A stretch of 64,000 nucleotides of DNA from assembly GCA_916048095.2 (NCBI GenBank), contig OU696596.1, forward strand, positions 248,001 to 312,000, written 5' to 3'. Source of the stretch: Sacculina carcini. Taxonomy: Eukaryota; Arthropoda; Thecostraca; Sacculinidae. The position numbers were made by a program, and so were the translations under genes. This document shows, piece by piece, positions 232 through 50,578 of the stretch. Under the pieces are notes generated by a model, which was not told the DNA's origin, did no database searches, and saw nothing but the letters and a program-made list of their open reading frames with translations. How positions within the stretch are numbered: the stretch's first letter is position 1; each line of letters opens with the position of its first letter.

Positions 232-451
232 TACCCTTAGTGTTACCTAAGTGTTACCTAAGTGTTAACTAAGTGTTACTTAAGTGTTACCTAAGTGTTA
301 CCTAAGTGTTACCTAAGTGTGCCCTAAGTGTTACCTAAGTGTACCCTTAGTGTTACCTAAGTGTTACCTAAGTGTTAACTAAGTGTTACTTAAGTGTTAC
401 CTAAGTGTTACCTAAGTGTTACCTAAGTGTGCCCTAAGTGTTACCTAAGTG
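232..451. repeat. 110-bp (10-monomer) tandem pair marked by TACCCTTAGTG
   Basis: TACCCTTAGTG starts at 232 and again at 342, exactly 110 bp apart. Each copy reads TACCCTTAGTG, two type A, TTAACTAAGTG, TTACTTAAGTG, three type A, one type B and one type A. This is the second half of a 561-bp duplicated module whose first half lies before the window. It is followed by TGCTCTAAGTG at 683, 341 bp after the second TACCCTTAGTG, as also seen at 4214 to 4555. Confidence 0.9.
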
Positions 452-682
452 TGCCCTAAGTGTTACCTAAGTGTGCCCTAAGTGTTACCTAAGTGTTACC
501 TAAGTGTTACCTAAGTGTTACCTAAGTGTGCCCTAAGTGTTACCTAAGTGTGCCCTAAGTGTTACCTAAGTGTGCCCTAAGTGTTACCTAAGTGTGCCCT
601 AATTGTTACCTAAGTGTGCCCTAAGTGTTACCTAAGTGTGCCCTAAGTGTTACCTAAGTGTGCCCTAAGTGTTACCTAAGTG

Positions 683-4554: not shown

Positions 4555-4664
4555 TGCTCTAAGTGTTACCTAAGTGTGCCCTAAGTGTTACCTAAGTGTG
4601 CCCTAAGTGTTACCTAAGTGTACCCTAAGTGTTACCTAAGTGTGGCCTAAGTGTTACCTAAGTG
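3334..4664. repeat. TCACC/110/561-bp module, locus 1
   Basis: TCACCTAAGTG at 3334 lies 209 bp before TACCCTTAGTG at 3543. That marker repeats at 3653 (+110), 4104 (+561) and 4214 (+671). Each 561-bp half therefore holds a 110-bp tandem pair followed by a tail with four consecutive A monomers and a B monomer ending TAATTG. The halves differ by a few substitutions, for example ordinary type B at 3994 against TGCTCTAAGTG at 4555. The right edge is approximate. Confidence 0.82.
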
Positions 4665-7600
4665 TTACCTAAGTGTTACCTAAGTGTTACCTAAGTGTGC
4701 CCTAAGTGTTACCCAAGTGTTACCTAAGTGTTACCTAAGTGTTACCTAAGTGTTACCTAAGTATTACCTAAGTGTTACCTAAGTGTGCCCTAAGTGTTAA
4801 CTAAGTGTTACCTAAGTGTGCCCTAAGTGTTACCTAAGTGTGCCCTAAATGTTACCCAAGTGTGCCCTAAGTGTTACCTAAGTGTGCCCCAAGTGTTACC
4901 TAAGTGTACCCTAAGTGTTACCTAAGTGTTACCTAAGTGTGCCCTAAGTGTTACCCAAGTGTGCCCTAAGTGTTACCTAAGTGTGCCCCAAGTGTTACCT
5001 AAGTTTGCCCTAAGTGTTAACTAAGTGTTACCTAAGTGTGCCCTAAGTGTTACCTAAGTGTGCCCTAAGTGTTACCTAAGTGTTACCTAAGTGTTACCTA
5101 AGTGTTACCTAAGTGTGCCCTAAGTGTTACCCAAGTGTTACCTAAGTGTTACCTAAGTGTTACCTAAGTGTTACCTAAGTATTACCTAAGTGTTACCTAA
5201 GTGTGCCCTAAGTGTTACCTAAGTGTGCCCTAACTGTTACCTAAGTGTGCCCTAACTGTTACCTAAGTGTGCCCTAAGTGTTACCTAAGTGTGCCCTAAG
5301 TGTTACCTAAGTGTACCCTTAGTGTTACCTAAGTGTTACCTAAGTGTTGCCTAAGTGTTAACTAAGTGTTACCTAAGTGTGCCCTAAGTGTTACCTAAGT
5401 GTGCCCTAAGTGTTACCTAAGTGTGCCCTAAGTGTTACCTAAGTGTGCCCTAAGTGTTACCTAAGTGTGCCCCAAGTGTTACCTAAGTGTGCCCTAAGTG
5501 TTACCTAAGTGTACCCTAAGTGTTACCTAAGTGTTACCTAAGTGTGCCCTAAGTGTTACCTAAGTGTGCCCTAAGTGTTACCTAAGTGTGCCCCAAGTGT
5601 TACCTAAGTTTGCCCTAAGTGTTAACTAAGTGTTACCTAAGTGTGCCCTAAGTGTTACCTAAGTGTGCCCTAAGTGTTACCTAAGTGTTACCTAAGTGTT
5701 ACCTAAGTGTTACCTAAGTGTGCCCTAAGTGTTACCCAAGTGTTACCTAAGTGTTACCTAAGTGTTACCTAAGTGTTACCTAAGTATTACCTAAGTGTTA
5801 CCTAAGTGTGCCCTAAGTGTTACCTAAGTGTGCCCTAACTGTTACCTAAGTGTGCCCTAACTGTTACCTAAGTGTGCCCTAAGTGTTACCTAAGTGTGCC
5901 CTAAGTGTTACCTAAGTGTACCCTTAGTGTTACCTAAGTGTTACCTAAGTGTTGCCTAAGTGTTAACTAAGTGTTACCTAAGTGTGCCCTAAGTGTTACC
6001 TAAGTGTGCCCTAAGTGTTACCTAAGTGTGCCCTAAGTGTTACCTAAGTGTGCCCTAAGTGTTACCTAAGTGTACCCTAAGTGTTACCTAAGTGTGGCCT
6101 AAGTGTTACCTAAGTGTGCCCCAAGTGTTACCTAAGTGTGCCCTAAGTGTTAACTAAGTGTTACCTAAGTGTGCCCTAAGTGTTAGCTAAGTGTACCATG
6201 AGTGTTACCTAAGTGTTACCTAAGTGTTACCTAAGTGTTACCTAAGAGTTACCTAAGTGTTACATATGTGTTACCTAAGTGTGCCCTAAGTGTTACCTAA
6301 GTGTGCGCTAAGTGTTACCTAAGTGTTACCTAAGTGTGCCCTAAGTGTTACCTAAGTGTGCCCTAAGTGTTACCTAAGTGTGCCCTAAGTGTTACCTAAG
6401 TGTGCCCTAAGTGTTACCCAAGTGTGCCCTAAGTGTTACCTAAGTGTGCCCTAAGTGTTACCTAAGTGTGCCCCAAGTGTTACCTAAGTGTGCCCTAAGT
6501 GTTAACTAAGTGTTACCTAAGTGTGCCCTAAGTGTTACCTAAGAGTGCCCTAACTGTTACCTAAGTGTGCCCTAACTGTTACCTAAGTGTGCCCTAAGTG
6601 TTACCTAAGTGTGCCCTAAGTGTTACCTAAGTGTTACCTAAGTGTGCCCTAAGTGTTACCCAAGTGTTACCTAAGTGTTACCTAAGTGTTACCTAAGTGT
6701 TACCTAAGTATTACCTAAGTGTTACCTAAGTGTGCCCTAAGTGTTACCTAAGTGTGCCCTAACTGTTACCTAAGTGTGCCCTAACTGTTACCTAAGTGTG
6801 CCCTAAGTGTTACCTAAGTGTGCCCTAAGTGTTACCTAAGTGTACCCTTAGTGTTACCTAAGTGTTACCTAAGTGTTAACTAAGTGTTACTTAAGTGTTA
6901 CCCAAGTGTGCCCTAAGTGTTACCTAAGTGTGCCCTAAGTGTTACCTAAGTGTGCCCTAAGTGTTACCGAAGTGTACCCTAAGTGTTACCTAAGTGTTAC
7001 CTAAGTGTTACCTAAGTGTTACCCAAGTGTTACCTAAGTGTGCCCTAAGTGTTACCTAAGTGTGCCCTAAGTGTGCCCTAAGTGTTACCTAAGTGTACCC
7101 TTAGTGTTACCCAAGTGTTACCTAAGTGTTACCTAAGTGTTACCTAAGTGTGCCTTAAGTGTTACCTAAGTGTGCCCTAAGTGTTACCTAAGTGTTACTT
7201 AAGTGTTACCCAAGTGTGCCCTAAGTGTTACCTAAGTGTGCCCTAAGTGTTACCTAAGTGTGCCCTAAGTGTTACCTAAGTGTACCCTAAGTGTTACCTA
7301 AGTGTGCCCTAAGTGTTACCTAAGTGTTACCTAAGTGTGCCCTAAGTGTTACCCAAGTGTTACCTAAGTGTTACCTAAGTGTTACCTAAGTGTTACCTAA
7401 GTATTACCTAAGTGTTACCTAAGTGTGCCCTAAGTGTTACCTAAGTGTGCCCTAACTGTTACCTAAGTGTGCCCTAACTGTTACCTAAGTGTGCCCTAAG
7501 TGTTACCTAAGTGTGCCCTAAGTGTTACCTAAGTGTACCCTAAGTGTTACCTAAGTGTTACCTAAGTGTTAACTAAGTGTTACTTAAGTGTTACCTAAGT

Positions 7601-7986
7601 GTTACCTAAGTGTTACCTAAGTGTGCCCTAAGTGTTACCTAAGTGTACCCTTAGTGTTACCTAAGTGTTACCTAAGTGTTAACTAAGTGTTACTTAAGTG
7701 TTACCTAAGTGTTACCTAAGTGTTACCTAAGTGTGCCCTAAGTGTTACCTAAGTGTGCCCTAAGTGTTACCTAAGTGTGCCCTAAGTGTTACCTAAGTGT
7801 TACCTAAGTGTTACCTAAGTGTTACCTAAGTGTGCCCTAAGTGTTACCTAAGTGTGCCCTAAGTGTTACCTAAGTGTGCCCTAAGTGTTACCTAAGTGTG
7901 CCCTAATTGTTACCTAAGTGTGCCCTAAGTGTTACCTAAGTGTGCCCTAAGTGTTACCTAAGTGTGCCCTAAGTGTTACCTAAGTG
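4555..7986. repeat. 3.43-kb variant higher-order repeat, tandem copy 1 of 3
   Basis: Starts at TGCTCTAAGTG (4555) and runs to the next one at 7987 (3,432 bp, 312 monomers). Unlike the 3.85-kb units, it lacks TTACCTGAGTG at +154. After TGGCCTAAGTG (4643, +88) it goes straight into a run of A monomers, then type B and TTACCCAAGTG. TTACATATGTG is at 6260 and is followed 44 bp later by TGCGCTAAGTG (6304), so this copy belongs to the GCGC subfamily. TTACCGAAGTG lies at 6964. This looks like a rearranged derivative of the larger unit that was then amplified in tandem. Confidence 0.82.
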
Positions 7987-10900
7987 TGCTCTAAGTGTTA
8001 CCTAAGTGTGCCCTAAGTGTTACCTAAGTGTGCCCTAAGTGTTACCTAAGTGTACCCTAAGTGTTACCTAAGTGTGGCCTAAGTGTTACCTAAGTGTTAC
8101 CTAAGTGTTACCTAAGTGTTACCTAAGTGTGCCCTAAGTGTTACCCAAGTGTTACCTAAGTGTTACCTAAGTGTTACCTAAGTGTTACCTAAGTATTACC
8201 TAAGTGTTACCTAAGTGTGCCCTAAGTGTTAACTAAGTGTTACCTAAGTGTGCCCTAAGTGTTACCTAAGTGTGCCCTAAGTGTTACCCAAGTGTGCCCT
8301 AAGTGTTACCTAAGTGTGCCCCAAGTGTTACCTAAGTGTACCCTAAGTGTTACCTAAGTGTTACCTAAGTGTGCCCTAAGTGTTACCCAAGTGTGCCCTA
8401 AGTGTTACCTAAGTGTGCCCCAAGTGTTACCTAAGTTTGCCCTAAGTGTTAACTAAGTGTTACCTAAGTGTGCCCTAAGTGTTACCTAAGTGTGCCCTAA
8501 GTGTTACCTAAGTGTTACCTAAGTGTTACCTAAGTGTTACCTAAGTGTGCCCTAAGTGTTACCCAAGTGTTACCTAAGTGTTACCTAAGTGTTACCTAAG
8601 TGTTACCTAAGTATTACCTAAGTGTTACCTAAGTGTGCCCTAAGTGTTACCTAAGTGTGCCCTAACTGTTACCTAAGTGTGCCCTAACTGTTACCTAAGT
8701 GTGCCCTAAGTGTTACCTAAGTGTGCCCTAAGTGTTACCTAAGTGTACCCTTAGTGTTACCTAAGTGTTACCTAAGTGTTGCCTAAGTGTTAACTAAGTG
8801 TTACCTAAGTGTGCCCTAAGTGTTACCTAAGTGTGCCCTAAGTGTTACCTAAGTGTTACCTAAGTGTTGCCTAAGTGTTAACTAAGTGTTACCTAAGTGT
8901 GCCCTAAGTGTTACCTAAGTGTGCCCTAAGTGTTACCTAAGTGTGCCCTAAGTGTTACCTAAGTGTGCCCTAAGTGTTACCTAAGTGTGCCCCAAGTGTT
9001 ACCTAAGTGTGCCCTAAGTGTTACCTAAGTGTACCCTAAGTGTTACCTAAGTGTTACCTAAGTGTGCCCTAAGTGTTACCCAAGTGTGCCCTAAGTGTTA
9101 CCTAAGTGTGCCCCAAGTGTTACCTAAGTTTGCCCTAAGTGTTAACTAAGTGTTACCTAAGTGTGCCCTAAGTGTTACCTAAGTGTGCCCTAAGTGTTAC
9201 CTAAGTGTTACCTAAGTGTTACCTAAGTGTTACCTAAGTGTGCCCTAAGTGTTACCCAAGTGTTACCTAAGTGTTACCTAAGTGTTACCTAAGTGTTACC
9301 TAAGTATTACCTAAGTGTTACCTAAGTGTGCCCTAAGTGTTACCTAAGTGTGCCCTAACTGTTACCTAAGTGTGCCCTAACTGTTACCTAAGTGTGCCCT
9401 AAGTGTTACCTAAGTGTGCCCTAAGTGTTACCTAAGTGTACCCTTAGTGTTACCTAAGTGTTACCTAAGTGTTGCCTAAGTGTTAACTAAGTGTTACCTA
9501 AGTGTGCCCTAAGTGTTACCTAAGTGTGCCCTAAGTGTTACCTAAGTGTGCCCTAAGTGTTACCTAAGTGTGCCCTAAGTGTTACCTAAGTGTACCCTAA
9601 GTGTTACCTAAGTGTGGCCTAAGTGTTACCTAAGTGTGCCCCAAGTGTTACCTAAGTGTGCCCTAAGTGTTACCTAAGTGTTACCTAAGTGTGCCCTAAG
9701 TGTTAGCTAAGTGTACCATGAGTGTTACCTAAGTGTTACCTAAGTGTTACCTAAGTGTTACCTAAGAGTTACCTAAGTGTTACATATGTGTTACCTAAGT
9801 GTGCCCTAAGTGTTACCTAAGTGTGCGCTAAGTGTTACCTAAGTGTTACCTAAGTGTGCCCTAAGTGTTACCTAAGTGTGCCCTAAGTGTTACCTAAGTG
9901 TGCCCTAAGTGTTACCTAAGTGTGCCCTAAGTGTTACCCAAGTGTGCCCTAAGTGTTACCTAAGTGTGCCCTAAGTGTTACCTAAGTGTGCCCCAAGTGT
10001 TACCTAAGTGTGCCCTAAGTGTTAACTAAGTGTTACCTAAGTGTGCCCTAAGTGTTACCTAAGAGTGCCCTAACTGTTACCTAAGTGTGCCCTAACTGTT
10101 ACCTAAGTGTGCCCTAAGTGTTACCTAAGTGTGCCCTAAGTGTTACCTAAGTGTTACCTAAGTGTGCCCTAAGTGTTACCCAAGTGTTACCTAAGTGTTA
10201 CCTAAGTGTTACCTAAGTGTTACCTAAGTATTACCTAAGTGTTACCTAAGTGTGCCCTAAGTGTTACCTAAGTGTGCCCTAACTGTTACCTAAGTGTGCC
10301 CTAACTGTTACCTAAGTGTGCCCTAAGTGTTACCTAAGTGTGCCCTAAGTGTTACCTAAGTGTACCCTTAGTGTTACCTAAGTGTTACCTAAGTGTTAAC
10401 TAAGTGTTACTTAAGTGTTACCCAAGTGTGCCCTAAGTGTTACCTAAGTGTGCCCTAAGTGTTACCTAAGTGTGCCCTAAGTGTTACCGAAGTGTACCCT
10501 AAGTGTTACCTAAGTGTTACCTAAGTGTTACCTAAGTGTTACCCAAGTGTTACCTAAGTGTGCCCTAAGTGTTACCTAAGTGTGCCCTAAGTGTGCCCTA
10601 AGTGTTACCTAAGTGTACCCTTAGTGTTACCCAAGTGTTACCTAAGTGTTACCTAAGTGTTACCTAAGTGTGCCTTAAGTGTTACCTAAGTGTGCCCTAA
10701 GTGTTACCTAAGTGTTACTTAAGTGTTACCCAAGTGTGCCCTAAGTGTTACCTAAGTGTGCCCTAAGTGTTACCTAAGTGTGCCCTAAGTGTTACCTAAG
10801 TGTACCCTAAGTGTTACCTAAGTGTGCCCTAAGTGTTACCTAAGTGTTACCTAAGTGTGCCCTAAGTGTTACCCAAGTGTTACCTAAGTGTTACCTAAGT

Positions 10901-11506
10901 GTTACCTAAGTGTTACCTAAGTATTACCTAAGTGTTACCTAAGTGTGCCCTAAGTGTTACCTAAGTGTGCCCTAACTGTTACCTAAGTGTGCCCTAACTG
11001 TTACCTAAGTGTGCCCTAAGTGTTACCTAAGTGTGCCCTAAGTGTTACCTAAGTGTACCCTTAGTGTTACCTAAGTGTTACCTAAGTGTTAACTAAGTGT
11101 TACTTAAGTGTTACCTAAGTGTTACCTAAGTGTTACCTAAGTGTGCCCTAAGTGTTACCTAAGTGTACCCTTAGTGTTACCTAAGTGTTACCTAAGTGTT
11201 AACTAAGTGTTACTTAAGTGTTACCTAAGTGTTACCTAAGTGTTACCTAAGTGTGCCCTAAGTGTTACCTAAGTGTGCCCTAAGTGTTACCTAAGTGTGC
11301 CCTAAGTGTTACCTAAGTGTTACCTAAGTGTTACCTAAGTGTTACCTAAGTGTGCCCTAAGTGTTACCTAAGTGTGCCCTAAGTGTTACCTAAGTGTGCC
11401 CTAAGTGTTACCTAAGTGTGCCCTAATTGTTACCTAAGTGTGCCCTAAGTGTTACCTAAGTGTGCCCTAAGTGTTACCTAAGTGTGCCCTAAGTGTTACC
11501 TAAGTG
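7987..11506. repeat. 3.52-kb variant higher-order repeat, tandem copy 2 of 3
   Basis: Bounded by TGCTCTAAGTG at 7987 and 11507 (3,520 bp, 320 monomers). Landmarks match the previous copy: TTACATATGTG at 9780, TGCGCTAAGTG at 9824 and TTACCGAAGTG at 10484. It is 88 bp longer than copy 1, and an exact 2 x 88-bp tandem duplication at 8757-8932 explains this. From 8841 to about 11114 it matches 30621-32894 almost base for base (two substitutions seen by line-by-line comparison). Confidence 0.85.
8757..8932. repeat. Exact 2 x 88-bp tandem duplication
   Basis: Two identical 8-monomer blocks (8757-8844 and 8845-8932), each reading A, A, TTGCCTAAGTG, TTAACTAAGTG, A, B, A, B. TTGCCTAAGTG falls at 8779 and 8867. 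Neighbouring copies of the larger unit, and the related segment near 30.6 kb, have the block only once. It is therefore a private, in-register duplication and one of the youngest events visible. Confidence 0.88.
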
Positions 11507-14500
11507 TGCTCTAAGTGTTACCTAAGTGTGCCCTAAGTGTTACCTAAGTGTGCCCTAAGTGTTACCTAAGTGTACCCTAAGTGTTACCTAAGTGTGGCCT
11601 AAGTGTTACCTAAGTGTTACCTAAGTGTTACCTAAGTGTTACCTAAGTGTGCCCTAAGTGTTACCCAAGTGTTACCTAAGTGTTACCTAAGTGTTACCTA
11701 AGTGTTACCTAAGTATTACCTAAGTGTTACCTAAGTGTGCCCTAAGTGTTAACTAAGTGTTACCTAAGTGTGCCCTAAGTGTTACCTAAGTGTGCCCTAA
11801 ATGTTACCCAAGTGTGCCCTAAGTGTTACCTAAGTGTGCCCCAAGTGTTACCTAAGTGTACCCTAAGTGTTACCTAAGTGTTACCTAAGTGTGCCCTAAG
11901 TGTTACCCAAGTGTGCCCTAAGTGTTACCTAAGTGTGCCCCAAGTGTTACCTAAGTTTGCCCTAAGTGTTAACTAAGTGTTACCTAAGTGTGCCCTAAGT
12001 GTTACCTAAGTGTGCCCTAAGTGTTACCTAAGTGTTACCTAAGTGTTACCTAAGTGTTACCTAAGTGTGCCCTAAGTGTTACCCAAGTGTTACCTAAGTG
12101 TTACCTAAGTGTTACCTAAGTGTTACCTAAGTATTACCTAAGTGTTACCTAAGTGTGCCCTAAGTGTTACCTAAGTGTGCCCTAAGTGTTACCTAAGTGT
12201 GCCCTAACTGTTACCTAAGTGTGCCCTAAGTGTTACCTAAGTGTGCCCTAAGTGTTACCTAAGTGTACCCTTAGTGTTACCTAAGTGTTACCTAAGTGTT
12301 GCCTAAGTGTTAACTAAGTGTTACCTAAGTGTGCCCTAAGTGTTACCTAAGTGTGCCCTAAGTGTTACCTAAGTGTGCCCTAAGTGTTACCTAAGTGTGC
12401 CCTAAGTGTTACCTAAGTGTGCCCCAAGTGTTACCTAAGTGTGCCCTAAGTGTTACCTAAGTGTACCCTAAGTGTTACCTAAGTGTTACCTAAGTGTGCC
12501 CTAAGTGTTACCCAAGTGTGCCCTAAGTGTTACCTAAGTGTGCCCCAAGTGTTACCTAAGTTTGCCCTAAGTGTTAACTAAGTGTTACCTAAGTGTGCCC
12601 TAAGTGTTACCTAAGTGTGCCCTAAGTGTTACCTAAGTGTTACCTAAGTGTTACCTAAGTGTTACCTAAGTGTGCCCTAAGTGTTACCCAAGTGTTACCT
12701 AAGTGTTACCTAAGTGTTACCTAAGTGTTACCTAAGTATTACCTAAGTGTTACCTAAGTGTGCCCTAAGTGTTACCTAAGTGTGCCCTAACTGTTACCTA
12801 AGTGTGCCCTAACTGTTACCTAAGTGTGCCCTAAGTGTTACCTAAGTGTGCCCTAAGTGTTACCTAAGTGTACCCTTAGTGTTACCTAAGTGTTACCTAA
12901 GTGTTGCCTAAGTGTTAACTAAGTGTTACCTAAGTGTGCCCTAAGTGTTACCTAAGTGTGCCCTAAGTGTTACCTAAGTGTGCCCTAAGTGTTACCTAAG
13001 TGTGCCCTAAGTGTTACCTAAGTGTACCCTAAGTGTTACCTAAGTGTGGCCTAAGTGTTACCTAAGTGTGCCCCAAGTGTTACCTAAGTGTGCCCTAAGT
13101 GTTAACTAAGTGTTACCTAAGTGTGCCCTAAGTGTTAGCTAAGTGTACCATGAGTGTTACCTAAGTGTTACCTAAGTGTTACCTAAGTGTTACCTAAGAG
13201 TTACCTAAGTGTTACATATGTGTTACCTAAGTGTGCCCTAAGTGTTACCTAAGTGTGCGCTAAGTGTTACCTAAGTGTTACCTAAGTGTGCCCTAAGTGT
13301 TACCTAAGTGTGCCCTAAGTGTTACCTAAGTGTGCCCTAAGTGTTACCTAAGTGTGCCCTAAGTGTTACCCAAGTGTGCCCTAAGTGTTACCTAAGTGTG
13401 CCCTAAGTGTTACCTAAGTGTGCCCCAAGTGTTACCTAAGTGTGCCCTAAGTGTTAACTAAGTGTTACCTAAGTGTGCCCTAAGTGTTACCTAAGAGTGC
13501 CCTAACTGTTACCTAAGTGTGCCCTAACTGTTACCTAAGTGTGCCCTAAGTGTTACCTAAGTGTGCCCTAAGTGTTACCTAAGTGTTACCTAAGTGTGCC
13601 CTAAGTGTTACCCAAGTGTTACCTAAGTGTTACCTAAGTGTTACCTAAGTGTTACCTAAGTATTACCTAAGTGTTACCTAAGTGTGCCCTAAGTGTTACC
13701 TAAGTGTGCCCTAACTGTTACCTAAGTGTGCCCTAACTGTTACCTAAGTGTGCCCTAAGTGTTACCTAAGTGTGCCCTAAGTGTTACCTAAGTGTACCCT
13801 TAGTGTTACCTAAGTGTTACCTAAGTGTTAACTAAGTGTTACTTAAGTGTTACCCAAGTGTGCCCTAAGTGTTACCTAAGTGTGCCCTAAGTGTTACCTA
13901 AGTGTGCCCTAAGTGTTACCGAAGTGTACCCTAAGTGTTACCTAAGTGTTACCTAAGTGTTACCTAAGTGTTACCCAAGTGTTACCTAAGTGTGCCCTAA
14001 GTGTTACCTAAGTGTGCCCTAAGTGTGCCCTAAGTGTTACCTAAGTGTACCCTTAGTGTTACCCAAGTGTTACCTAAGTGTTACCTAAGTGTTACCTAAG
14101 TGTGCCTTAAGTGTTACCTAAGTGTGCCCTAAGTGTTACCTAAGTGTTACTTAAGTGTTACCCAAGTGTGCCCTAAGTGTTACCTAAGTGTGCCCTAAGT
14201 GTTACCTAAGTGTGCCCTAAGTGTTACCTAAGTGTACCCTAAGTGTTACCTAAGTGTGCCCTAAGTGTTACCTAAGTGTTACCTAAGTGTGCCCTAAGTG
14301 TTACCCAAGTGTTACCTAAGTGTTACCTAAGTGTTACCTAAGTGTTACCTAAGTATTACCTAAGTGTTACCTAAGTGTGCCCTAAGTGTTACCTAAGTGT
14401 GCCCTAACTGTTACCTAAGTGTGCCCTAACTGTTACCTAAGTGTGCCCTAAGTGTTACCTAAGTGTGCCCTAAGTGTTACCTAAGTGTACCCTTAGTGTT

Positions 14501-23551: not shown

Positions 23552-25949
23552 TGCTCTAAGTGTTACCTAAGTGTGCCCTAAGTGTTACCTAAGTGTGCCC
23601 TAAGTGTTACCTAAGTGTACCCTAAGTGTTACCTAAGTGTGGCCTAAGTGTTACCTAAGTGTGCCCCAAGTGTTACCTAAGTGTGCCCTAAGTGTTAACT
23701 AAGTGTTACCTGAGTGTGCCCTAAGTGTTACCTAAGTGTACCCTAAGTGTTACCTAAGAGTTACCTAAGTGTTACATAAGTGTTACCTAAGTGTTACCCA
23801 AGTGTTACCTAAGTGTGCCCTAAGTGTTATCTAAGTGTGCCCTAAGTGTTACCTAAGTGTGCCCTAAATGTTACCCAAGTGTGCCCTAAGTGTTACCTAA
23901 GTGTGCCCCAAGTGTTACCTAAGTGTGCCCTAAGTGTTACCTAAGTGTACCCTAAGTGTTACCTAAGTGTTACCTAAGTGTGCCCTAAGTGTTACCCAAG
24001 TGTGCCCTAAGTGTTACCTAAGTGTGCCCCAAGTGTTACCTAAGTTTGCCCTAAGTGTTAACTAAGTGTTACCTAAGTGTGCCCTAAGTGTTACCTAAGT
24101 GTGCCCTAAGTGTTACCTAAGTGTTACCTAAGTGTTACCTAAGTGTTACCTAAGTGTGCCCTAAGTGTTACCCAAGTGTTACCTAAGTGTTACCTAAGTG
24201 TTACCTAAGTGTTACCTAAGTATTACCTAAGTGTTACCTAAGTGTGCCCTAAGTGTTACCTAAGTGTGCCCTAACTGTTACCTAAGTGTGCCCTAACTGT
24301 TACCTAAGTGTGCCCTAAGTGTTACCTAAGTGTGCCCTAAGTGTTACCTAAGTGTACCCTTAGTGTTACCTAAGTGTTACCTAAGTGTTGCCTAAGTGTT
24401 AACTAAGTGTTACCTAAGTGTGCCCTAAGTGTTACCTAAGTGTGCCCTAAGTGTTACCCAAGTGTGCCCTAAGTGTTACCTAAGTGTGCCCTAAGTGTTA
24501 CCTAAGTGTGCCCCAAGTGTTACCTAAGTGTGCCCTAAGTGTTACCTAAGTGTACCCTAAGTGTTACCTAAGTGTTACCTAAGTGTGCCCTAAGTGTTAC
24601 CCAAGTGTGCCCTAAGTGTTACCTAAGTGTGCCCCAAGTGTTACCTAAGTGTGCCCTAAGTGTTAACTAAGTGTTACCTAAGTGTGCCCTAAGTGTTACC
24701 TAAGTGTGCCCTAAGTGTTACCTAAGTGTTACCTAAGTGTTACCTAAGTGTCACCTAAGTGTGCCCTAAGTGTTACCCAAGTGTTACCTAAGTGTTACCT
24801 AAGTGTTACCTAAGTGTTACCTAAGTATTACCTAAGTGTTACCTAAGTGTGCCCTAAGTGTTACCTAAGTGTGCCCTAACTGTTACCTAAGTGTGCCCTA
24901 ACTGTTACCTAAGTGTGCCCTAAGTGTTACCTAAGTGTGCCCTAAGTGTTACCTAAGTGTACCCTTAGTGTTACCTAAGTGTTACCTAAGTGTTAACTAA
25001 GTGTTACTTAAGTGTTACCTAAGTGTTACCTAAGTGTTACCTAAGTGTGCCCTAAGTGTTACCTAAGTGTACCCTTAGTGTTACCTAAGTGTTACCTAAG
25101 TGTTAACTAAGTGTTACTTAAGTGTTACCTAAGTGTTACCTAAGTGTTACCTAAGTGTGCCCTAAGTGTTACCTAAGTGTGCCCTAAGTGTTACCTAAGT
25201 GTGCCCTAAGTGTTACCTAAGTGTTACCTAAGTGTTACCTAAGTGTTACCTAAGTGTGCCCTAAGTGTTACCTAAGTGTGCCCTAAGTGTTACCTAAGTG
25301 TGCCCTAAGTGTTACCTAAGTGTGCCCTAATTGTTACCTAAGTGTGCCCTAAGTGTTACCTAAGTGTGCCCTAAGTGTTACCTAAGTGTGCCCTAAGTGT
25401 TACCTAAGTGTGCCCTAAGTGTTACCTAAGTGTGCCCTAACTGTTACCTAAGTGTGCCCTAACTGTTACCTAAGTGTGCCCTAAGTGTTACCTAAGTGTG
25501 CCCTAAGTGTTACCTAAGTGTACCCTTAGTGTTACCTAAGTGTTACCTAAGTGTTAACTAAGTGTTACTTAAGTGTTACCTAAGTGTTACCTAAGTGTTA
25601 CCTAAGTGTGCCCTAAGTGTTACCTAAGTGTACCCTTAGTGTTACCTAAGTGTTACCTAAGTGTTAACTAAGTGTTACTTAAGTGTTACCTAAGTGTTAC
25701 CTAAGTGTTACCTAAGTGTGCCCTAAGTGTTACCTAAGTGTGCCCTAAGTGTTACCTAAGTGTGCCCTAAGTGTTACCTAAGTGTTACCTAAGTGTTACC
25801 TAAGTGTTACCTAAGTGTGCCCTAAGTGTTACCTAAGTGTGCCCTAAGTGTTACCTAAGTGTGCCCTAATTGTTACCTAAGTGTGCCCTAAGTGTTACCT
25901 AAGTGTGCCCTAAGTGTTACCTAAGTGTGCCCTAAGTGTTACCTAAGTG
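23552..25949. repeat. 2.40-kb higher-order repeat with a 1,430-bp internal deletion
   Basis: Bounded by TGCTCTAAGTG at 23552 and 25950 (2,398 bp, 218 monomers). The left part follows copy 2 exactly: TTACCTGAGTG at +154 and TTGCCTAAGTG at +836 (24388). The right part follows the tail of copy 2 at an offset of 2,398 bp: TCACCTAAGTG at 24751 against 22353, and TACCCTTAGTG at 24960 against 22562. The difference from copy 2 is 1,430 bp, exactly 130 monomers, and the missing segment includes TTACATATGTG. The join lies at about 24.45 kb. Confidence 0.82.
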
Positions 25950-26081
25950 TGCTCTAAGTGTTACCTAAGTGTGCCCTAAGTGTTACCTAAGTGTGCCCTA
26001 AGTGTTACCTAAGTGTACCCTAAGTGTTACCTAAGTGTGGCCTAAGTGTTACCTAAGTGTGCCCCAAGTGTTACCTAAGTG
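24751..26081. repeat. TCACC/110/561-bp module, locus 4
   Basis: TCACCTAAGTG at 24751 is followed by TACCCTTAGTG at 24960 (+209), with the 561-bp partner at 25521. Both halves carry a second TACCCTTAGTG about 110 bp on. It lies at the end of the internally deleted unit and leads into TGCTCTAAGTG at 25950. Confidence 0.82.
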
Positions 26082-29000
26082 TGCCCTAAGTGTTAACTAA
26101 GTGTTACCTGAGTGTGCCCTAAGTGTTACCTAAGTGTACCCTAAGTGTTACCTAAGAGTTACCTAAGTGTTACATAAGTGTTACCTAAGTGTTACCCAAG
26201 TGTTACCTAAGTGTGCCCTAAGTGTTATCTAAGTGTGCCCTAAGTGTTACCTAAGTGTGCCCTAAATGTTACCCAAGTGTGCCCTAAGTGTTACCTAAGT
26301 GTGCCCCAAGTGTTACCTAAGTGTGCCCTAAGTGTTACCTAAGTGTGCCCTAAGTGTTACCTAAGTGTTACCTAAGTGTGCCCTAAGTGTTACCCAAGTG
26401 TGCCCTAAGTGTTACCTAAGTGTGCCCCAAGTGTTACCTAAGTTTGCCCTAAGTGTTAACTAAGTGTTACCTAAGTGTGCCCTAAGTGTTACCTAAGTGT
26501 GCCCTAAGTGTTACCTAAGTGTTACCTAAGTGTTACCTAAGTGTTACCTAAGTGTGCCCTAAGTGTTACCCAAGTGTTACCTAAGTGTTACCTAAGTGTT
26601 ACCTAAGTGTTACCTAAGTATTACCTAAGTGTTACCTAAGTGTGCCCTAAGTGTTACCTAAGTGTGCCCTAACTGTTACCTAAGTGTGCCCTAACTGTTA
26701 CCTAAGTGTGCCCTAAGTGTTACCTAAGTGTGCCCTAAGTGTTACCTAAGTGTACCCTTAGTGTTACCTAAGTGTTACCTAAGTGTTGCCTAAGTGTTAA
26801 CTAAGTGTTACCTAAGTGTGCCCTAAGTGTTACCTAAGTGTGCCCTAAGTGTTACCTAAGTGTGCCCTAAGTGTTACCTAAGTGTGCCCTAAGTGTTACC
26901 TAAGTGTGCCCCAAGTGTTACCTAAGTGTGCCCTAAGTGTTACCTAAGTGTACCCTAAGTGTTACCTAAGTGTTACCTAAGTGTGCCCTAAGTGTTACCC
27001 AAGTGTGCCCTAAGTGTTACCTAAGTGTGCCCCAAGTGTTACCTAAGTTTGCCCTAAGTGTTAACTAAGTGTTACCTAAGTGTGCCCTAAGTGTTACCTA
27101 AGTGTGCCCTAAGTGTTACCTAAGTGTTACCTAAGTGTTACCTAAGTGTTACCTAAGTGTGCCCTAAGTGTTACCCAAGTGTTACCTAAGTGTTACCTAA
27201 GTGTTACCTAAGTGTTACCTAAGTATTACCTAAGTGTTACCTAAGTGTGCCCTAAGTGTTACCTAAGTGTGCCCTAACTGTTACCTAAGTGTGCCCTAAC
27301 TGTTACCTAAGTGTGCCCTAAGTGTTACCTAAGTGTGCCCTAAGTGTTACCTAAGTGTACCCTTAGTGTTACCTAAGTGTTACCTAAGTGTTGCCTAAGT
27401 GTTAACTAAGTGTTACCTAAGTGTGCCCTAAGTGTTACCTAAGTGTGCCCTAAGTGTTACCTAAGTGTGCCCTAAGTGTTACCTAAGTGTGCCCTAAGTG
27501 TTACCTAAGTGTACCCTAAGTGTTACCTAAGTGTGGCCTAAGTGTTACCTAAGTGTGCCCCAAGTGTTACCTAAGTGTGCCCTAAGTGTTAACTAAGTGT
27601 TACCTAAGTGTGCCCTAAGTGTTAGCTAAGTGTACCATGAGTGTTACCTAAGTGTTACCTAAGTGTTACCTAAGTGTTACCTAAGAGTTACCTAAGTGTT
27701 ACATATGTGTTACCTAAGTGTGCCCTAAGTGTTACCTAAGTGTGCCCTAAGTGTTACCCAAGTGTGCCCTAAGTGTTACCCAAGTGTGCCCTAAGTGTTA
27801 CCTAAGTGTGCCCTAAGTGTGCCCTAAGTGTTACCTAAGTGTACCATAAGTGTTACCTAAGTGTTACCTAAGTGTTACCTAAGTGTTACCTAAGTGTTAC
27901 CTAAGAGTTACCTAAGTGTTACATAAGTGTTACCTAAGTGTGCCCTAAGTGTTACCTAAGTGTGCCCTAAGTGTTACCTAAGTGTGCCCTAAGTGTTACC
28001 TAAGTGTGCCCTAAGTGTTACCTAAGTGTGCCCTAAGTGTGCCCTAAGTGTTACCTAAGTGTACCATAAGTGTTACCTAAGTGTTACCTAAGTGTTACCT
28101 AAGTGTTACCTAAGTGTTACCTAAGTGTTACCCAAGTGTTACCTAAGTGTGCCCTAAGTGTTACCTAAGTGTGCCCTAAGTGTGCCCTAAGTGTTACCTA
28201 AGTGTACCCTTAGTGTTACCCAAGTGTTACCTAAGTGTTAACTAAGTGTTACCTAAGTGTGCCCTAAGTGTTACCTAAGTGTGCCCGAAGTGTTACCCAA
28301 GTGTGCCCTAAGTGTTACCTAAGTGTGCCCTAAGTGTTACCTAAGTGTGCCCCAAGTGTTACCTAAGTGTGCCCTAAGTGTTACCTAAGTGTACCCTAAG
28401 TGTTACCTAAGTGTTACCTAAGTGTGCCCTAAGTGTTACCCAAGTGTGCCCTAAGTGTTACCTAAGTGTGCCCCAAGTGTTACCTAAGTGTGCCCTAAGT
28501 GTTAACTAAGTGTTACCTAAGTGTGCCCTAAGTGTTACCTAAGTGTGCCCTAAGTGTTACCTAAGTGTTACCTAAGTGTTACCTAAGTGTCACCTAAGTG
28601 TGCCCTAAGTGTTACCCAAGTGTTACCTAAGTGTTACCTAAGTGTTACCTAAGTGTTACCTAAGTATTACCTAAGTGTTACCTAAGTGTGCCCTAAGTGT
28701 TACCTAAGTGTGCCCTAACTGTTACCTAAGTGTGCCCTAACTGTTACCTAAGTGTGCCCTAAGTGTTACCTAAGTGTGCCCTAAGTGTTACCTAAGTGTA
28801 CCCTTAGTGTTACCTAAGTGTTACCTAAGTGTTAACTAAGTGTTACTTAAGTGTTACCTAAGTGTTACCTAAGTGTTACCTAAGTGTGCCCTAAGTGTTA
28901 CCTAAGTGTACCCTTAGTGTTACCTAAGTGTTACCTAAGTGTTAACTAAGTGTTACTTAAGTGTTACCTAAGTGTTACCTAAGTGTTACCTAAGTGTGCC

Positions 29001-29810
29001 CTAAGTGTTACCTAAGTGTGCCCTAAGTGTTACCTAAGTGTGCCCTAAGTGTTACCTAAGTGTTACCTAAGTGTTACCTAAGTGTTACCTAAGTGTGCCC
29101 TAAGTGTTACCTAAGTGTGCCCTAAGTGTTACCTAAGTGTGCCCTAAGTGTTACCTAAGTGTGCCCTAATTGTTACCTAAGTGTGCCCTAAGTGTTACCT
29201 AAGTGTGCCCTAAGTGTTACCTAAGTGTGCCCTAAGTGTTACCTAAGTGTGCCCTAAGTGTTACCTAAGTGTGCCCTAACTGTTACCTAAGTGTGCCCTA
29301 ACTGTTACCTAAGTGTGCCCTAAGTGTTACCTAAGTGTGCCCTAAGTGTTACCTAAGTGTACCCTTAGTGTTACCTAAGTGTTACCTAAGTGTTAACTAA
29401 GTGTTACTTAAGTGTTACCTAAGTGTTACCTAAGTGTTACCTAAGTGTGCCCTAAGTGTTACCTAAGTGTACCCTTAGTGTTACCTAAGTGTTACCTAAG
29501 TGTTAACTAAGTGTTACTTAAGTGTTACCTAAGTGTTACCTAAGTGTTACCTAAGTGTGCCCTAAGTGTTACCTAAGTGTGCCCTAAGTGTTACCTAAGT
29601 GTGCCCTAAGTGTTACCTAAGTGTTACCTAAGTGTTACCTAAGTGTTACCTAAGTGTGCCCTAAGTGTTACCTAAGTGTGCCCTAAGTGTTACCTAAGTG
29701 TGCCCTAAGTGTTACCTAAGTGTGCCCTAATTGTTACCTAAGTGTGCCCTAAGTGTTACCTAAGTGTGCCCTAAGTGTTACCTAAGTGTGCCCTAAGTGT
29801 TACCTAAGTG
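25950..29810. repeat. 3.86-kb higher-order repeat, copy 3
   Basis: Bounded by TGCTCTAAGTG at 25950 and 29811 (3,861 bp, 351 monomers). Landmarks: TTACCTGAGTG 26104 (+154), TTACATATGTG 27699 (+1749, no TGCGCTAAGTG after it), TGCCCGAAGTG 28282, TCACCTAAGTG 28590 and the module at 28799 (+2849). The shared TGCCCGAAGTG makes it the closest relative of copy 2. Near 26350 it has ordinary type B where copies 1 and 2 have TACCCTAAGTG. Confidence 0.85.
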
Positions 29811-29920
29811 TGCTCTAAGTGTTACCTAAGTGTGCCCTAAGTGTTACCTAAGTGTGCCCTAAGTGTTACCTAAGTGTACCCTAAGTGTTACCTAAGTGTG
29901 GCCTAAGTGTTACCTAAGTG
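28590..29920. repeat. TCACC/110/561-bp module, locus 5
   Basis: TCACCTAAGTG at 28590 is followed by TACCCTTAGTG at 28799 (+209), with the 561-bp partner at 29360. Both halves show the 110-bp tandem pair, and the tail runs into TGCTCTAAGTG at 29811. It matches loci 1, 4, 6, 7 and 8 in layout. Confidence 0.82.
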
Positions 29921-30620
29921 TGCCCTAAGTGTTACCTAAGTGTGCCCTAAGTGTTAACTAAGTGTTACCTGAGTGTGCCCTAAGTGTTACCTAAGTGTAC
30001 CCTAAGTGTTACCTAAGAGTTACCTAAGTGTTACATAAGTGTTACCTAAGTGTTACCCAAGTGTTACCTAAGTGTGCCCTAAGTGTTATCTAAGTGTGCC
30101 CTAAGTGTTACCTAAGTGTGCCCTAAATGTTACCCAAGTGTGCCCTAAGTGTTACCTAAGTGTGCCCCAAGTGTTACCTAAGTGTGCCCTAAGTGTTACC
30201 TAAGTGTACCCTAAGTGTTACCTAAGTGTTACCTAAGTGTGCCCTAAGTGTTACCCAAGTGTGCCCTAAGTGTTACCTAAGTGTGCCCCAAGTGTTACCT
30301 AAGTTTGCCCTAAGTGTTAACTAAGTGTTACCTAAGTGTGCCCTAAGTGTTACCTAAGTGTGCCCTAAGTGTTACCTAAGTGTTACCTAAGTGTTACCTA
30401 AGTGTTACCTAAGTGTGCCCTAAGTGTTACCCAAGTGTTACCTAAGTGTTACCTAAGTGTTACCTAAGTGTTACCTAAGTATTACCTAAGTGTTACCTAA
30501 GTGTGCCCTAAGTGTTACCTAAGTGTGCCCTAACTGTTACCTAAGTGTGCCCTAACTGTTACCTAAGTGTGCCCTAAGTGTTACCTAAGTGTGCCCTAAG
30601 TGTTACCTAAGTGTACCCTT

Positions 30621-32894
30621 AGTGTTACCTAAGTGTTACCTAAGTGTTGCCTAAGTGTTAACTAAGTGTTACCTAAGTGTGCCCTAAGTGTTACCTAAGT
30701 GTGCCCTAAGTGTTACCTAAGTGTGCCCTAAGTGTTACCTAAGTGTGCCCTAAGTGTTACCTAAGTGTGCCCCAAGTGTTACCTAAGTGTGCCCTAAGTG
30801 TTACCTAAGTGTACCCTAAGTGTTACCTAAGTGTTACCTAAGTGTGCCCTAAGTGTTACCCAAGTGTGCCCTAAGTGTTACCTAAGTGTGCCCCAAGTGT
30901 TACCTAAGTTTGCCCTAAGTGTTAACTAAGTGTTACCTAAGTGTGCCCTAAGTGTTACCTAAGTGTGCCCTAAGTGTTACCTAAGTGTTACCTAAGTGTT
31001 ACCTAAGTGTTACCTAAGTGTGCCCTAAGTGTTACCCAAGTGTTACCTAAGTGTTACCTAAGTGTTACCTAAGTGTTACCTAAGTATTACCTAAGTGTTA
31101 CCTAAGTGTGCCCTAAGTGTTACCTAAGTGTGCCCTAACTGTTACCTAAGTGTGCCCTAACTGTTACCTAAGTGTGCCCTAAGTGTTACCTAAGTGTGCC
31201 CTAAGTGTTACCTAAGTGTGCCCTTAGTGTTACCTAAGTGTTACCTAAGTGTTGCCTAAGTGTTAACTAAGTGTTACCTAAGTGTGCCCTAAGTGTTACC
31301 TAAGTGTGCCCTAAGTGTTACCTAAGTGTGCCCTAAGTGTTACCTAAGTGTGCCCTAAGTGTTACCTAAGTGTACCCTAAGTGTTACCTAAGTGTGGCCT
31401 AAGTGTTACCTAAGTGTGCCCCAAGTGTTACCTAAGTGTGCCCTAAGTGTTAACTAAGTGTTACCTAAGTGTGCCCTAAGTGTTAGCTAAGTGTACCATG
31501 AGTGTTACCTAAGTGTTACCTAAGTGTTACCTAAGTGTTACCTAAGAGTTACCTAAGTGTTACATATGTGTTACCTAAGTGTGCCCTAAGTGTTACCTAA
31601 GTGTGCGCTAAGTGTTACCTAAGTGTTACCTAAGTGTGCCCTAAGTGTTACCTAAGTGTGCCCTAAGTGTTACCTAAGTGTGCCCTAAGTGTTACCTAAG
31701 TGTGCCCTAAGTGTTACCCAAGTGTGCCCTAAGTGTTACCTAAGTGTGCCCTAAGTGTTACCTAAGTGTGCCCCAAGTGTTACCTAAGTGTGCCCTAAGT
31801 GTTAACTAAGTGTTACCTAAGTGTGCCCTAAGTGTTACCTAAGAGTGCCCTAACTGTTACCTAAGTGTGCCCTAACTGTTACCTAAGTGTGCCCTAAGTG
31901 TTACCTAAGTGTGCCCTAAGTGTTACCTAAGTGTTACCTAAGTGTGCCCTAAGTGTTACCCAAGTGTTACCTAAGTGTTACCTAAGTGTTACCTAAGTGT
32001 TACCTAAGTATTACCTAAGTGTTACCTAAGTGTGCCCTAAGTGTTACCTAAGTGTGCCCTAACTGTTACCTAAGTGTGCCCTAACTGTTACCTAAGTGTG
32101 CCCTAAGTGTTACCTAAGTGTGCCCTAAGTGTTACCTAAGTGTACCCTTAGTGTTACCTAAGTGTTACCTAAGTGTTAACTAAGTGTTACTTAAGTGTTA
32201 CCCAAGTGTGCCCTAAGTGTTACCTAAGTGTGCCCTAAGTGTTACCTAAGTGTGCCCTAAGTGTTACCGAAGTGTACCCTAAGTGTTACCTAAGTGTTAC
32301 CTAAGTGTTACCTAAGTGTTACCCAAGTGTTACCTAAGTGTGCCCTAAGTGTTACCTAAGTGTGCCCTAAGTGTGCCCTAAGTGTTACCTAAGTGTACCC
32401 TTAGTGTTACCCAAGTGTTACCTAAGTGTTACCTAAGTGTTACCTAAGTGTGCCTTAAGTGTTACCTAAGTGTGCCCTAAGTGTTACCTAAGTGTTACTT
32501 AAGTGTTACCCAAGTGTGCCCTAAGTGTTACCTAAGTGTGCCCTAAGTGTTACCTAAGTGTGCCCTAAGTGTTACCTAAGTGTACCCTAAGTGTTACCTA
32601 AGTGTGCCCTAAGTGTTACCTAAGTGTTACCTAAGTGTGCCCTAAGTGTTACCCAAGTGTTACCTAAGTGTTACCTAAGTGTTACCTAAGTGTTACCTAA
32701 GTATTACCTAAGTGTTACCTAAGTGTGCCCTAAGTGTTACCTAAGTGTGCCCTAACTGTTACCTAAGTGTGCCCTAACTGTTACCTAAGTGTGCCCTAAG
32801 TGTTACCTAAGTGTGCCCTAAGTGTTACCTAAGTGTACCCTTAGTGTTACCTAAGTGTTACCTAAGTGTTAACTAAGTGTTACTTAAGTGTTAC
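30621..32894. repeat. 2.27-kb near-identical copy of 8841-11114
   Basis: Line-by-line comparison at an offset of 21,780 bp (1,980 monomers) shows two substitutions in about 2,274 bp. TACCCTTAGTG near 9439 is TGCCCTTAGTG near 31219, and a type A monomer near 9670 is TTAACTAAGTG near 31450. No difference was seen from about 31460 to 32894. Outside the interval the two diverge at once: on the left because of the 88-bp insertion in the first copy, on the right because this copy enters the second 693-bp repeat. The similarity of distant copies points to recent exchange. Confidence 0.83.
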
Positions 32895-38962: not shown

Positions 38963-41900
38963 TTACCTAAGTGTGCCCTAAGTGTTACCTAAGTGTTACC
39001 TAAGTGTTACCTAAGTGTTACCTAAGTGTGCCCTAAGTGTTACCCAAGTGTTACCTAAGTGTTACCTAAGTGTTACCTAAGTGTTACCTAAGTATTACCT
39101 AAGTGTTACCTAAGTGTGCCCTAAGTGTTACCTAAGTGTGCCCTAACTGTTACCTAAGTGTGCCCTAACTGTTACCTAAGTGTGCCCTAAGTGTTACCTA
39201 AGTGTGCCCTAAGTGTTACCTAAGTGTACCCTTAGTGTTACCTAAGTGTTACCTAAGTGTTGCCTAAGTGTTAACTAAGTGTTACCTAAGTGTGCCCTAA
39301 GTGTTACCTAAGTGTGCCCTAAGTGTTACCTAAGTGTGCCCTAAGTGTTACCTAAGTGTGCCCTAAGTGTTACCTAAGTGTGCCCCAAGTGTTACCTAAG
39401 TGTGCCCTAAGTGTTACCTAAGTGTACCCTAAGTGTTACCTAAGTGTTACCTAAGTGTGCCCTAAGTGTTACCCAAGTGTGCCCTAAGTGTTACCTAAGT
39501 GTGCCCCAAGTGTTACCTAAGTTTGCCCTAAGTGTTAACTAAGTGTTACCTAAGTGTGCCCTAAGTGTTACCTAAGTGTTACCTAAGTGTTACCTAAGTG
39601 TGCCCTAAGTGTTACCCAAGTGTTACCTAAGTGTTACCTAAGTGTTACCTAAGTGTTACCTAAGTATTACCTAAGTGTTACCTAAGTGTGCCCTAAGTGT
39701 TACCTAAGTGTGCCCTAACTGTTACCTAAGTGTGCCCTAACTGTTACCTAAGTGTGCCCTAAGTGTTACCTAAGTGTGCCCTAAGTGTTACCTAAGTGTA
39801 CCCTTAGTGTTACCTAAGTGTTACCTAAGTGTTGCCTAAGTGTTAACTAAGTGTTACCTAAGTGTGCCCTAAGTGTTACCTAAGTGTGCCCTAAGTGTTA
39901 CCTAAGTGTGCCCTAAGTGTTACCTAAGTGTGCCCTAAGTGTTACCTAAGTGTACCCTAAGTGTTACCTAAGTGTGGCCTAAGTGTTACCTAAGTGTGCC
40001 CCAAGTGTTACCTAAGTGTGCCCTAAGTGTTAACTAAGTGTTACCTAAGTGTGCCCTAAGTGTTAGCTAAGTGTACCATGAGTGTTACCTAAGTGTTACC
40101 TAAGTGTTACCTAAGTGTTACCTAAGAGTTACCTAAGTGTTACATATGTGTTACCTAAGTGTGCCCTAAGTGTTACCTAAGTGTGCCCTAAGTGTTACCC
40201 AAGTGTGCCCTAAGTGTTACCCAAGTGTGCCCTAAGTGTTACCTAAGTGTGCCCTAAGTGTGCCCTAAGTGTTACCTAAGTGTACCATAAGTGTTACCTA
40301 AGTGTTACCTAAGTGTTACCTAAGTGTTACCTAAGTGTTACCTAAGAGTTACCTAAGTGTTACATAAGTGTTACCTAAGTGTGCCCTAAGTGTTACCTAA
40401 GTGTGCCCTAAGTGTTACCTAAGTGTGCCCTAAGTGTTACCTAAGTGTGCCCTAAGTGTTACCTAAGTGTGCCCTAAGTGTGCCCTAAGTGTTACCTAAG
40501 TGTACCATAAGTGTTACCTAAGTGTTACCTAAGTGTTACCTAAGTGTTACCTAAGTGTTACCTAAGTGTTACCCAAGTGTTACCTAAGTGTGCCCTAAGT
40601 GTTACCTAAGTGTGCCCTAAGTGTGCCCTAAGTGTTACCTAAGTGTACCCTTAGTGTTACCCAAGTGTTACCTAAGTGTTAACTAAGTGTTACCTAAGTG
40701 TGCCCTAAGTGTTACCTAAGTGTGCCCTAAGTGTTACCCAAGTGTGCCCTAAGTGTTACCTAAGTGTGCCCTAAGTGTTACCTAAGTGTGCCCCAAGTGT
40801 TACCTAAGTGTGCCCTAAGTGTTACCTAAGTGTACCCTAAGTGTTACCTAAGTGTTACCTAAGTGTGCCCTAAGTGTTACCCAAGTGTGCCCTAAGTGTT
40901 ACCTAAGTGTGCCCCAAGTGTTACCTAAGTGTGCCCTAAGTGTTAACTAAGTGTTACCTAAGTGTGCCCTAAGTGTTACCTAAGTGTGCCCTAAGTGTTA
41001 CCTAAGTGTTACCTAAGTGTTACCTAAGTGTCACCTAAGTGTGCCCTAAGTGTTACCCAAGTGTTACCTAAGTGTTACCTAAGTGTTACCTAAGTGTTAC
41101 CTAAGTATTACCTAAGTGTTACCTAAGTGTGCCCTAAGTGTTACCTAAGTGTGCCCTAACTGTTACCTAAGTGTGCCCTAAGTGTTACCTAAGTGTGCCC
41201 TAAGTGTTACCTAAGTGTGCCCTAAGTGTTACCTAAGTGTACCCTTAGTGTTACCTAAGTGTTACCTAAGTGTTAACTAAGTGTTACTTAAGTGTTACCT
41301 AAGTGTTACCTAAGTGTTACCTAAGTGTGCCCTAAGTGTTACCTAAGTGTACCCTTAGTGTTACCTAAGTGTTACCTAAGTGTTAACTAAGTGTTACTTA
41401 AGTGTTACCTAAGTGTTACCTAAGTGTTACCTAAGTGTGCCCTAAGTGTTACCTAAGTGTGCCCTAAGTGTTACCTAAGTGTGCCCTAAGTGTTACCTAA
41501 GTGTTACCTAAGTGTTACCTAAGTGTTACCTAAGTGTGCCCTAAGTGTTACCTAAGTGTGCCCTAAGTGTTACCTAAGTGTGCCCTAAGTGTTACCTAAG
41601 TGTGCCCTAATTGTTACCTAAGTGTGCCCTAAGTGTTACCTAAGTGTGCCCTAAGTGTTACCTAAGTGTGCCCTAAGTGTTACCTAAGTGTGCCCTAAGT
41701 GTTACCTAAGTGTGCCCTAACTGTTACCTAAGTGTGCCCTAACTGTTACCTAAGTGTGCCCTAAGTGTTACCTAAGTGTGCCCTAAGTGTTACCTAAGTG
41801 TACCCTTAGTGTTACCTAAGTGTTACCTAAGTGTTAACTAAGTGTTACTTAAGTGTTACCTAAGTGTTACCTAAGTGTTACCTAAGTGTGCCCTAAGTGT

Positions 41901-42251
41901 TACCTAAGTGTACCCTTAGTGTTACCTAAGTGTTACCTAAGTGTTAACTAAGTGTTACTTAAGTGTTACCTAAGTGTTACCTAAGTGTTACCTAAGTGTG
42001 CCCTAAGTGTTACCTAAGTGTGCCCTAAGTGTTACCTAAGTGTGCCCTAAGTGTTACCTAAGTGTTACCTAAGTGTTACCTAAGTGTTACCTAAGTGTGC
42101 CCTAAGTGTTACCTAAGTGTGCCCTAAGTGTTACCTAAGTGTGCCCTAAGTGTTACCTAAGTGTGCCCTAATTGTTACCTAAGTGTGCCCTAAGTGTTAC
42201 CTAAGTGTGCCCTAAGTGTTACCTAAGTGTGCCCTAAGTGTTACCTAAGTG
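38424..42251. repeat. 3.83-kb higher-order repeat, copy 4
   Basis: Bounded by TGCTCTAAGTG at 38424 and 42252 (3,828 bp, the same length as copy 2). TTACCTGAGTG is at 38578 (+154), TTACATATGTG at 40140 (+1716) without TGCGCTAAGTG, TCACCTAAGTG at 41031 and the module at 41240 (+2816). The offset from copy 2 is 18,700 bp at both ends but varies inside (18,667-18,678) through 11- to 33-bp losses and gains, so the equal length comes partly from compensating changes. Ordinary type B stands where copies 2 and 3 have TGCCCGAAGTG. Confidence 0.83.
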
Positions 42252-50501: not shown

Positions 50502-50578
50502 TACCATGAGTGTTACCTAAGTGTTAACTAAGTGTTACCTAAGTGTGCCCTAAGTGTTAGCTAAGTGTACCATGAGTG
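50502..50578. repeat. 66-bp TACCATGAGTG doublet, locus 4
   Basis: TACCATGAGTG at 50502 and 50568, 66 bp apart, inside the first 5.35-kb copy and 165 bp after TTACCGAAGTG at 50337. Confidence 0.86.

Follow-up and report, generated by a model that had tools for sequence, protein, structure and literature searches.

Nested, in-register duplications of many lengths in an 11-bp satellite array of Sacculina carcini

Short satellite units have long been linked to nested growth: the unequal-crossover model of Smith (1976) is said to build arrays by the nested doubling of short units through unequal exchange, and the mouse major satellite carries nested short periods that end in one uniform 234-bp unit. 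The array described here resembles both in the nested doubling by unequal exchange that we propose for it; unlike the mouse satellite, it does not end in a uniform unit. Human satellite III (GAATG; Y arrays including DYZ1) likewise combines a very short monomer with kilobase units of hundreds of monomers (PMC2588610, PMC4022460), and in the passages compared the GAATG arrays have higher-order repeats (HORs) of 3,360, 3,600 and 5,630 bp (PMC2588610). By our own division of these lengths, the 3.36 and 3.6 kb units hold about 670-720 pentamers and the 5.63 kb unit up to about 1,130. HOR units that comprise several hundred short monomers therefore have a precedent, the 3.36 and 3.6 kb HORs of GAATG being in print (PMC2588610). 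The initial annotation had measured the present array against alpha satellite, whose HORs usually have from a few to a few tens of monomers, a remark that is fair as stated and yet the wrong comparison, given GAATG HORs of about 670-1,130 monomers (PMC2588610).

The present array differs from human satellite III in monomer sequence and length and in having no dominant unit; in the passages compared, the 3.6 kb unit of Yq12 is described as extending over all of the array that was sequenced. Among those passages, the nearest description to the patchwork reported below is that of a 61-bp VNTR at human Xp22.33, whose irregular HORs, 1.6 and 2.5 kb long, are arranged in a complex way (PMC2588610), although its monomer is 61 bp and its array 18 kb long. 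The cascading alpha-satellite HORs of human chromosome 15, in which monomer types recur within the unit and sub-periods are nested (PMC11050224), are similar in these respects; there, in the part of the source compared, monomers are about 171 bp and the 15mer unit has 429 copies, 65% of them canonical, whereas here units are few and partial. The nested irregular periods reported here are thus of a kind already described, in the passages compared, for human short-unit satellites.

The window, that is, the whole stretch of 64,000 nucleotides that was analysed, is filled from position 1 to 64000 on the plus strand by a single head-to-tail satellite that continues past both ends. Tandem Repeats Finder (TRF) returned one row spanning 1-64000, with a period of 22, 2909 copies of 22 bp, 91% matches and 0% indels. 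We cut the window in 11-base steps from base 1 and accepted a monomer when it had at most four mismatches to either of two consensus sequences; all 5,818 monomers of 11 bp fitted in one phase and on one strand, with two bases left at the end, and across the 64 kb this cut revealed no unique sequence, inversion, insertion or phase shift. There are 37 distinct monomer types, four of which occur once. TTACCTAAGTG has 2,890 copies and TGCCCTAAGTG 1,473, the remaining 35 types summing to 1,455. These two main types, which together account for 4,363 of the 5,818 monomers, recur throughout the monomer string and often alternate, producing a 22-bp dimer. Shifted by 11 bp, the window is 82.8% identical to itself; shifted by 22 bp, 92.0%. 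The window is satellite DNA in the sense of a long head-to-tail array of a short noncoding unit. The list of open reading frames of at least 30 aa, from which frames running off the window ends are excluded, has 54 entries, all of 32 aa, and a search of the window against Rfam gave no match at the gathering score. The array probably has no coding role, and no function beyond that of any satellite block in heterochromatin.

Some observations on composition stand apart. CpG occurs 34 times in the 64 kb, with 2,898 expected from base composition. The variant TGCCCGAAGTG has just two copies, at 22045 and 28282, 6,237 bp apart and in the same context; this pair is the mark of one recent duplication. 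Searches of viral contigs with a 33-mer and a 22-mer taken from the repeat gave no match, nor was the 22-mer found in bacterial and archaeal genome contigs. The satellite family was not recognised among the matches listed in a full-text literature search with monomer and dimer strings, as judged from titles and abstract openings. These negatives say little, the contigs searched being viral, bacterial and archaeal. One 11-letter match, in a paper on Bradysia satellites (PMC12405879), falls within the probe for a 145-bp satellite in the part of the text concerned and was taken as chance.

The initial annotation had proposed a hierarchy of five nested periods, 11, 22, 110, 561 and about 3,850 bp, and its two inner claims held. 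The rare monomer TACCCTTAGTG occurs 107 times, and of its 106 spacings 17 equal 10 monomers, in line with the 110-bp period first named; the repetition of the pair at 561 bp (51 monomers) was recovered as five tandems with at least 95% equal monomers, four of them exact, at 2.08-2.14 copies. Exact 110-bp tandems number 16 in the window, each of 2.3 copies, and in 16 of 16 both the unit and a 3-monomer overhang are identical. A 605-bp (55-monomer) tandem is equally frequent (five at 95% equal monomers or more, 2.07-2.18 copies), and a 693-bp tandem occurs twice at this threshold (2.16 copies). Further exact tandems that hold at least two rarer monomers have units of 66 bp (five), 88 bp (one) and 198 bp (one).

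28766..29018, plus strand: 110-bp tandem with TACCCTTAGTG, 2.3 copies, one of 16 with one common unit
28656..29854, plus strand: 561-bp tandem, 2.14 copies
3400-4598, 41108-42273, 51844-53042 and 57190-58388, plus strand: the other 561-bp tandems
26269..27533, plus strand: 605-bp tandem, 2.09 copies
969-2288, 20054-21307, 30130-31394 and 58664-59928, plus strand: the other 605-bp tandems

The extent first given for the nested periods, 232..42251, proved too narrow, since the array extends over 1-64000, with 561-bp tandems reaching 58388. Because copy numbers are just 2.07-2.3, we read the inner tandems as products of single duplication events that larger copies then took along. Extra homology was looked for at the junctions of the inner tandems and was not found, the flanking homology being 0-3 monomers compared with a mean of 3.2 and a median of 1 at random breakpoints.

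At the kilobase scale, comparing the monomer string with itself gave 145 ungapped matches of high score; 74 of them have at least 100 monomers and are at least 97% equal, and together these cover 4,783 of the 5,818 monomers (82%). Lempel-Ziv (LZ) parsing gave 268 factors for the window versus 397-420 in five order-6 Markov strings. Adjacent or near-adjacent copies occur at lags of 218, 320, 348 and 486-487 monomers (2,398, 3,520, 3,828 and 5,346-5,357 bp), and the three best-scoring copies are dispersed, at lags of 28,534, 18,348 and 12,441 bp.

17832..24992 (17832-21164 and 21660-24992), plus strand: two neighbouring units, lag 3,828 bp, 94.4% of monomers equal
25807..31603 (25807-27742 and 29668-31603), plus strand: two half-unit copies, lag 3,861 bp, 98.3% of monomers equal
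5325..12375 (5325-8855 and 8845-12375), plus strand: adjacent tandem duplication, lag 3,520 bp, 98.4% of monomers equal
49248..59840 (49248-54494 and 54605-59840), plus strand: adjacent tandem duplication, lag 5,346-5,357 bp, 98-99% of monomers equal
27974..32450, and again at 56508-60984 (28.5 kb off), plus strand: longest dispersed copy, 98.8% equal over 407 monomers

Units of 3,872, 3,828, 3,861 and 3,828 bp had been listed as the top level of the hierarchy. Using marker words that we picked ourselves, each of these lengths could be measured (3,872 bp from 595 to 4467; 3,861 bp from 25862 to 29723; 3,828 bp from 19636 to 23464 on one marker and from 39227 to 43055 on another), but they do not follow one another. 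The spacings on one marker are 3,872, 3,432, 3,520, 8,217, 3,828, 2,398, 3,861, 12,441, 1,815, 8,932 and 5,346 bp, so that between 4467 and 19636 spacings of 3,432, 3,520 and 8,217 bp intervene and the units of 3.83-3.87 kb are not successive. A partner 345-355 monomers away exists for 30.5% of the array, a share that rises to 45% for lags of 305-360. The nested periods of 110, 561 and about 3,850 bp are real; a regular five-level hierarchy was not confirmed, given inner tandems of 2.07-2.3 copies and the 30.5% covered at 345-355 monomers. The proposal is in this way partly supported: the higher-order periods read as a patchwork in which duplications differ widely in length, rather than as a homogenised HOR with five levels stacked on one another.

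Similarity did not fall with distance. Weighted identity is 97.4% for lags below 400 monomers and 98.3-98.7% in four wider bands, and no decay was seen in 80 score-selected segments (Spearman 0.13, p 0.26); spread was therefore probably fast relative to mutation. A preference for the 22-bp register was not seen either, with 37 even and 43 odd lags among 80 segments of at least 100 monomers, whose lags are not independent of one another.

Long periods beyond the 22-bp dimer exist, as the autocorrelation of rare monomers over lags 1-999 makes clear, the peaks being at 348 (0.105), 55 (0.095), 632 (0.092), 320 (0.077), 486 (0.073) and 51 (0.070); lag 312 scores 0.068, and the median over lags is 0.019. 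As a null, we took the highest autocorrelation over lags 8-999 in 20 Markov strings per order, which gave 0.037 (order 1), 0.044 (order 2), 0.048 (order 4) and 0.073 (order 6). Lags 348, 55 and 51 exceed the nulls of orders 1, 2 and 4; lag 51 fails at order 6, whose strings already hold some of the structure being tested. Peaks at 10, 51 and about 348-352 monomers had been predicted, and the outcome is mixed. Lags 348 and 51 pass the low-order nulls, but lag 10 scores 0.037 for rare monomers, within the nulls, although it ranks sixth (0.376) when all monomers are counted. In the predicted range 348 is high and 351 moderate (0.050), whereas 349, 350 and 352 are low (0.032, 0.023 and 0.020). Lags 632, 320, 486 and 312 score comparably to or above lag 51.

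Taken together, we consider it probable that the satellite is young and owes its structure to in-register unequal exchange over a wide range of sizes, in which steps of 310-350 monomers (3.4-3.9 kb) may have been favoured. Copies would have been exchanged unequally and repeatedly, in register with the 11-bp monomer, the pieces ranging from a few to about 500 monomers and each event duplicating or deleting a piece; later, larger duplications would carry the smaller ones inside them and so generate the nested periods of 110, 561/605 and 3.4-5.4 kb. Register, copy numbers, lags and similarity are direct readings of the monomer string, and the exchanges themselves would be homologous recombination. 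By our estimate, about 10 in every 11 blunt random joins would break the phase; a register that stayed perfect over many duplications favours slippage, or exchange guided by homology, over blunt joining. It is the register alone that speaks for homology, since homology at the junctions is no longer than at random breakpoints. The copies lie in register with the monomer at distances that differ by whole monomers, as unequal exchange would leave them; replication slippage or break-induced copying would likewise preserve the register.

Array growth was also simulated, starting from 400 monomers with in-register duplication and deletion, few mutations, piece sizes even on a log scale and hand-picked parameters. 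The corresponding statistics of the window are a coverage of 0.85, a best single-lag band of 0.26, 268 LZ factors, a longest exact repeat of 249 monomers and a top autocorrelation of 0.105. With pieces of up to 1,000 monomers (27 runs), coverage (0.56-0.99) and band (0.13-0.48) bracketed the window, but the longest repeat exceeded that of the window in 27 of 27 runs, LZ factors fell below 268 in 26 and the top autocorrelation was higher in 24. Pieces of up to 500 (36 runs) came nearer to the window in LZ factors and longest repeat, with coverage below it in all 36 runs and the band below it in 35; pieces of up to 60 left long copies absent in all five runs. With the step fixed at 300-360 monomers, the band lay above the window's 0.262 (0.35-0.65) and LZ factors were too few, each in 17 of 17 runs. 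No simulated setting matched all five statistics, and the support for broad exchange is therefore qualitative only. In these models, ordinary unequal exchange is enough to produce nested and mixed periods, with no unit built in; the window lies between a broad size spectrum and a fixed step, so that a favoured step may be needed, and a mixture with a step near 310-350 monomers is our guess rather than a fitted value.

The strongest alternative, which we nonetheless consider rather unlikely, is a true HOR array, in which homogenisation acts on one unit of about 3.85 kb (about 350 monomers) and the other lags represent decayed or truncated copies of that unit. Lag 348 does score highest for rare monomers among lags below 1,000 and marks the centre of the best single-lag band, each of the marker words b to g is found 8 to 13 times, often in a shared order, and the joint coverage at lags 305-360 and the imperfect fit of broad-size simulations point in the same direction. 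Against this stand the modest share covered at 345-355, the fixed-step runs, which overshot the band with too few factors, and the separation of the three best-scoring copies by 12-28 kb. None of the full-unit squares at lags 312, 348, 351 and 352 reaches 95%, although one at lag 320 does. As to a multi-monomer unit repeated in tandem with high identity, neighbouring copies were seen at lags 320 and 348 and a half unit at 351, but lags 345-355 cover 30.5% of the array; a unit of all-distinct monomers, the Willard type as worded in the passage compared (PMC11050224), was not found, two types making up 4,363 of the 5,818 monomers.

Single-base differences between copies add a separate question. 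We screened 3,713 positions in families of at least four, using informative flanks of eight monomers per side, and obtained 24 single-copy outliers (for example 5556, 12178, 20802, 31219 and 49633). In 13 a variant had become the main type, in 3 (7536, 31219 and 49633) one of two variant bases, 3-5 bp apart, had reverted in a doubly variant monomer, and 8 had moved away from the consensus. Changes toward the consensus thus number 16 of 24, one base each, where a random single-base change would point that way in about 0.8% of cases (about 0.2 expected; binomial p about 1e-28), and two sets of 20 arrays simulated with novel mutation only gave 1 and 2 variant-to-main changes among 53 and 54 calls. 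Without the single-copy restriction, variant-to-main changes made up 16 of 26 events with flanks of six monomers, 26 of 39 with eight and 17 of 26 with ten; some of these, such as a variant with 22 versus 7 copies, may be ancient polymorphisms rather than reversions. Losses exceeded gains by 13 to 2 for whole monomers (two-sided p 0.007) and by 16 to 6 for all possible single-base events (p 0.052), the 6 being a hand count.

Symmetric gene conversion is disfavoured as the cause of these changes, and a single-base reversion beside an unchanged base 3-5 bp away seems short for gene conversion; consensus calling in repeats is the likelier source. It is doubtful, in our judgement, that the excess reflects very short-patch correction, which would copy single bases from neighbouring monomers, purge variants and, with duplication, keep the satellite uniform. 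As consensus calling could yield the 16 of 24 pattern, an assembly artefact, with the patchwork produced by mis-joined reads, has this in its favour; we regard it as very unlikely, in view of zero phase shift in 64 kb and of long copies that share rare variants and differ at few sites, although a wrong order of blocks stays compatible with both. Hardly credible is telomeric or telomere-derived DNA: the minus strand reads TTAGGTAACAC / TTAGGGCACAC, with TTAGG or TTAGGG in both main monomers (4,363 of 5,818), starts that we take to resemble insect or vertebrate telomere repeats, but the window shows no chromosome end, and a telomerase-made telomere is a uniform repeat set by one RNA template, of which 37 monomer types in an order copied over kilobases are not expected and which, as a candidate class, was rejected on these grounds.

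In-register unequal exchange of many sizes remains the reading that we favour, and the window is a clear record of satellite growth, with its perfect register, few variants and many traceable duplications. Should raw reads bear out the changes toward the consensus, conversion could be measured here directly, base by base. The array further suggests that nested periods need no selected unit, and that in-register duplication of pieces differing widely in size, one size perhaps being favoured, suffices.
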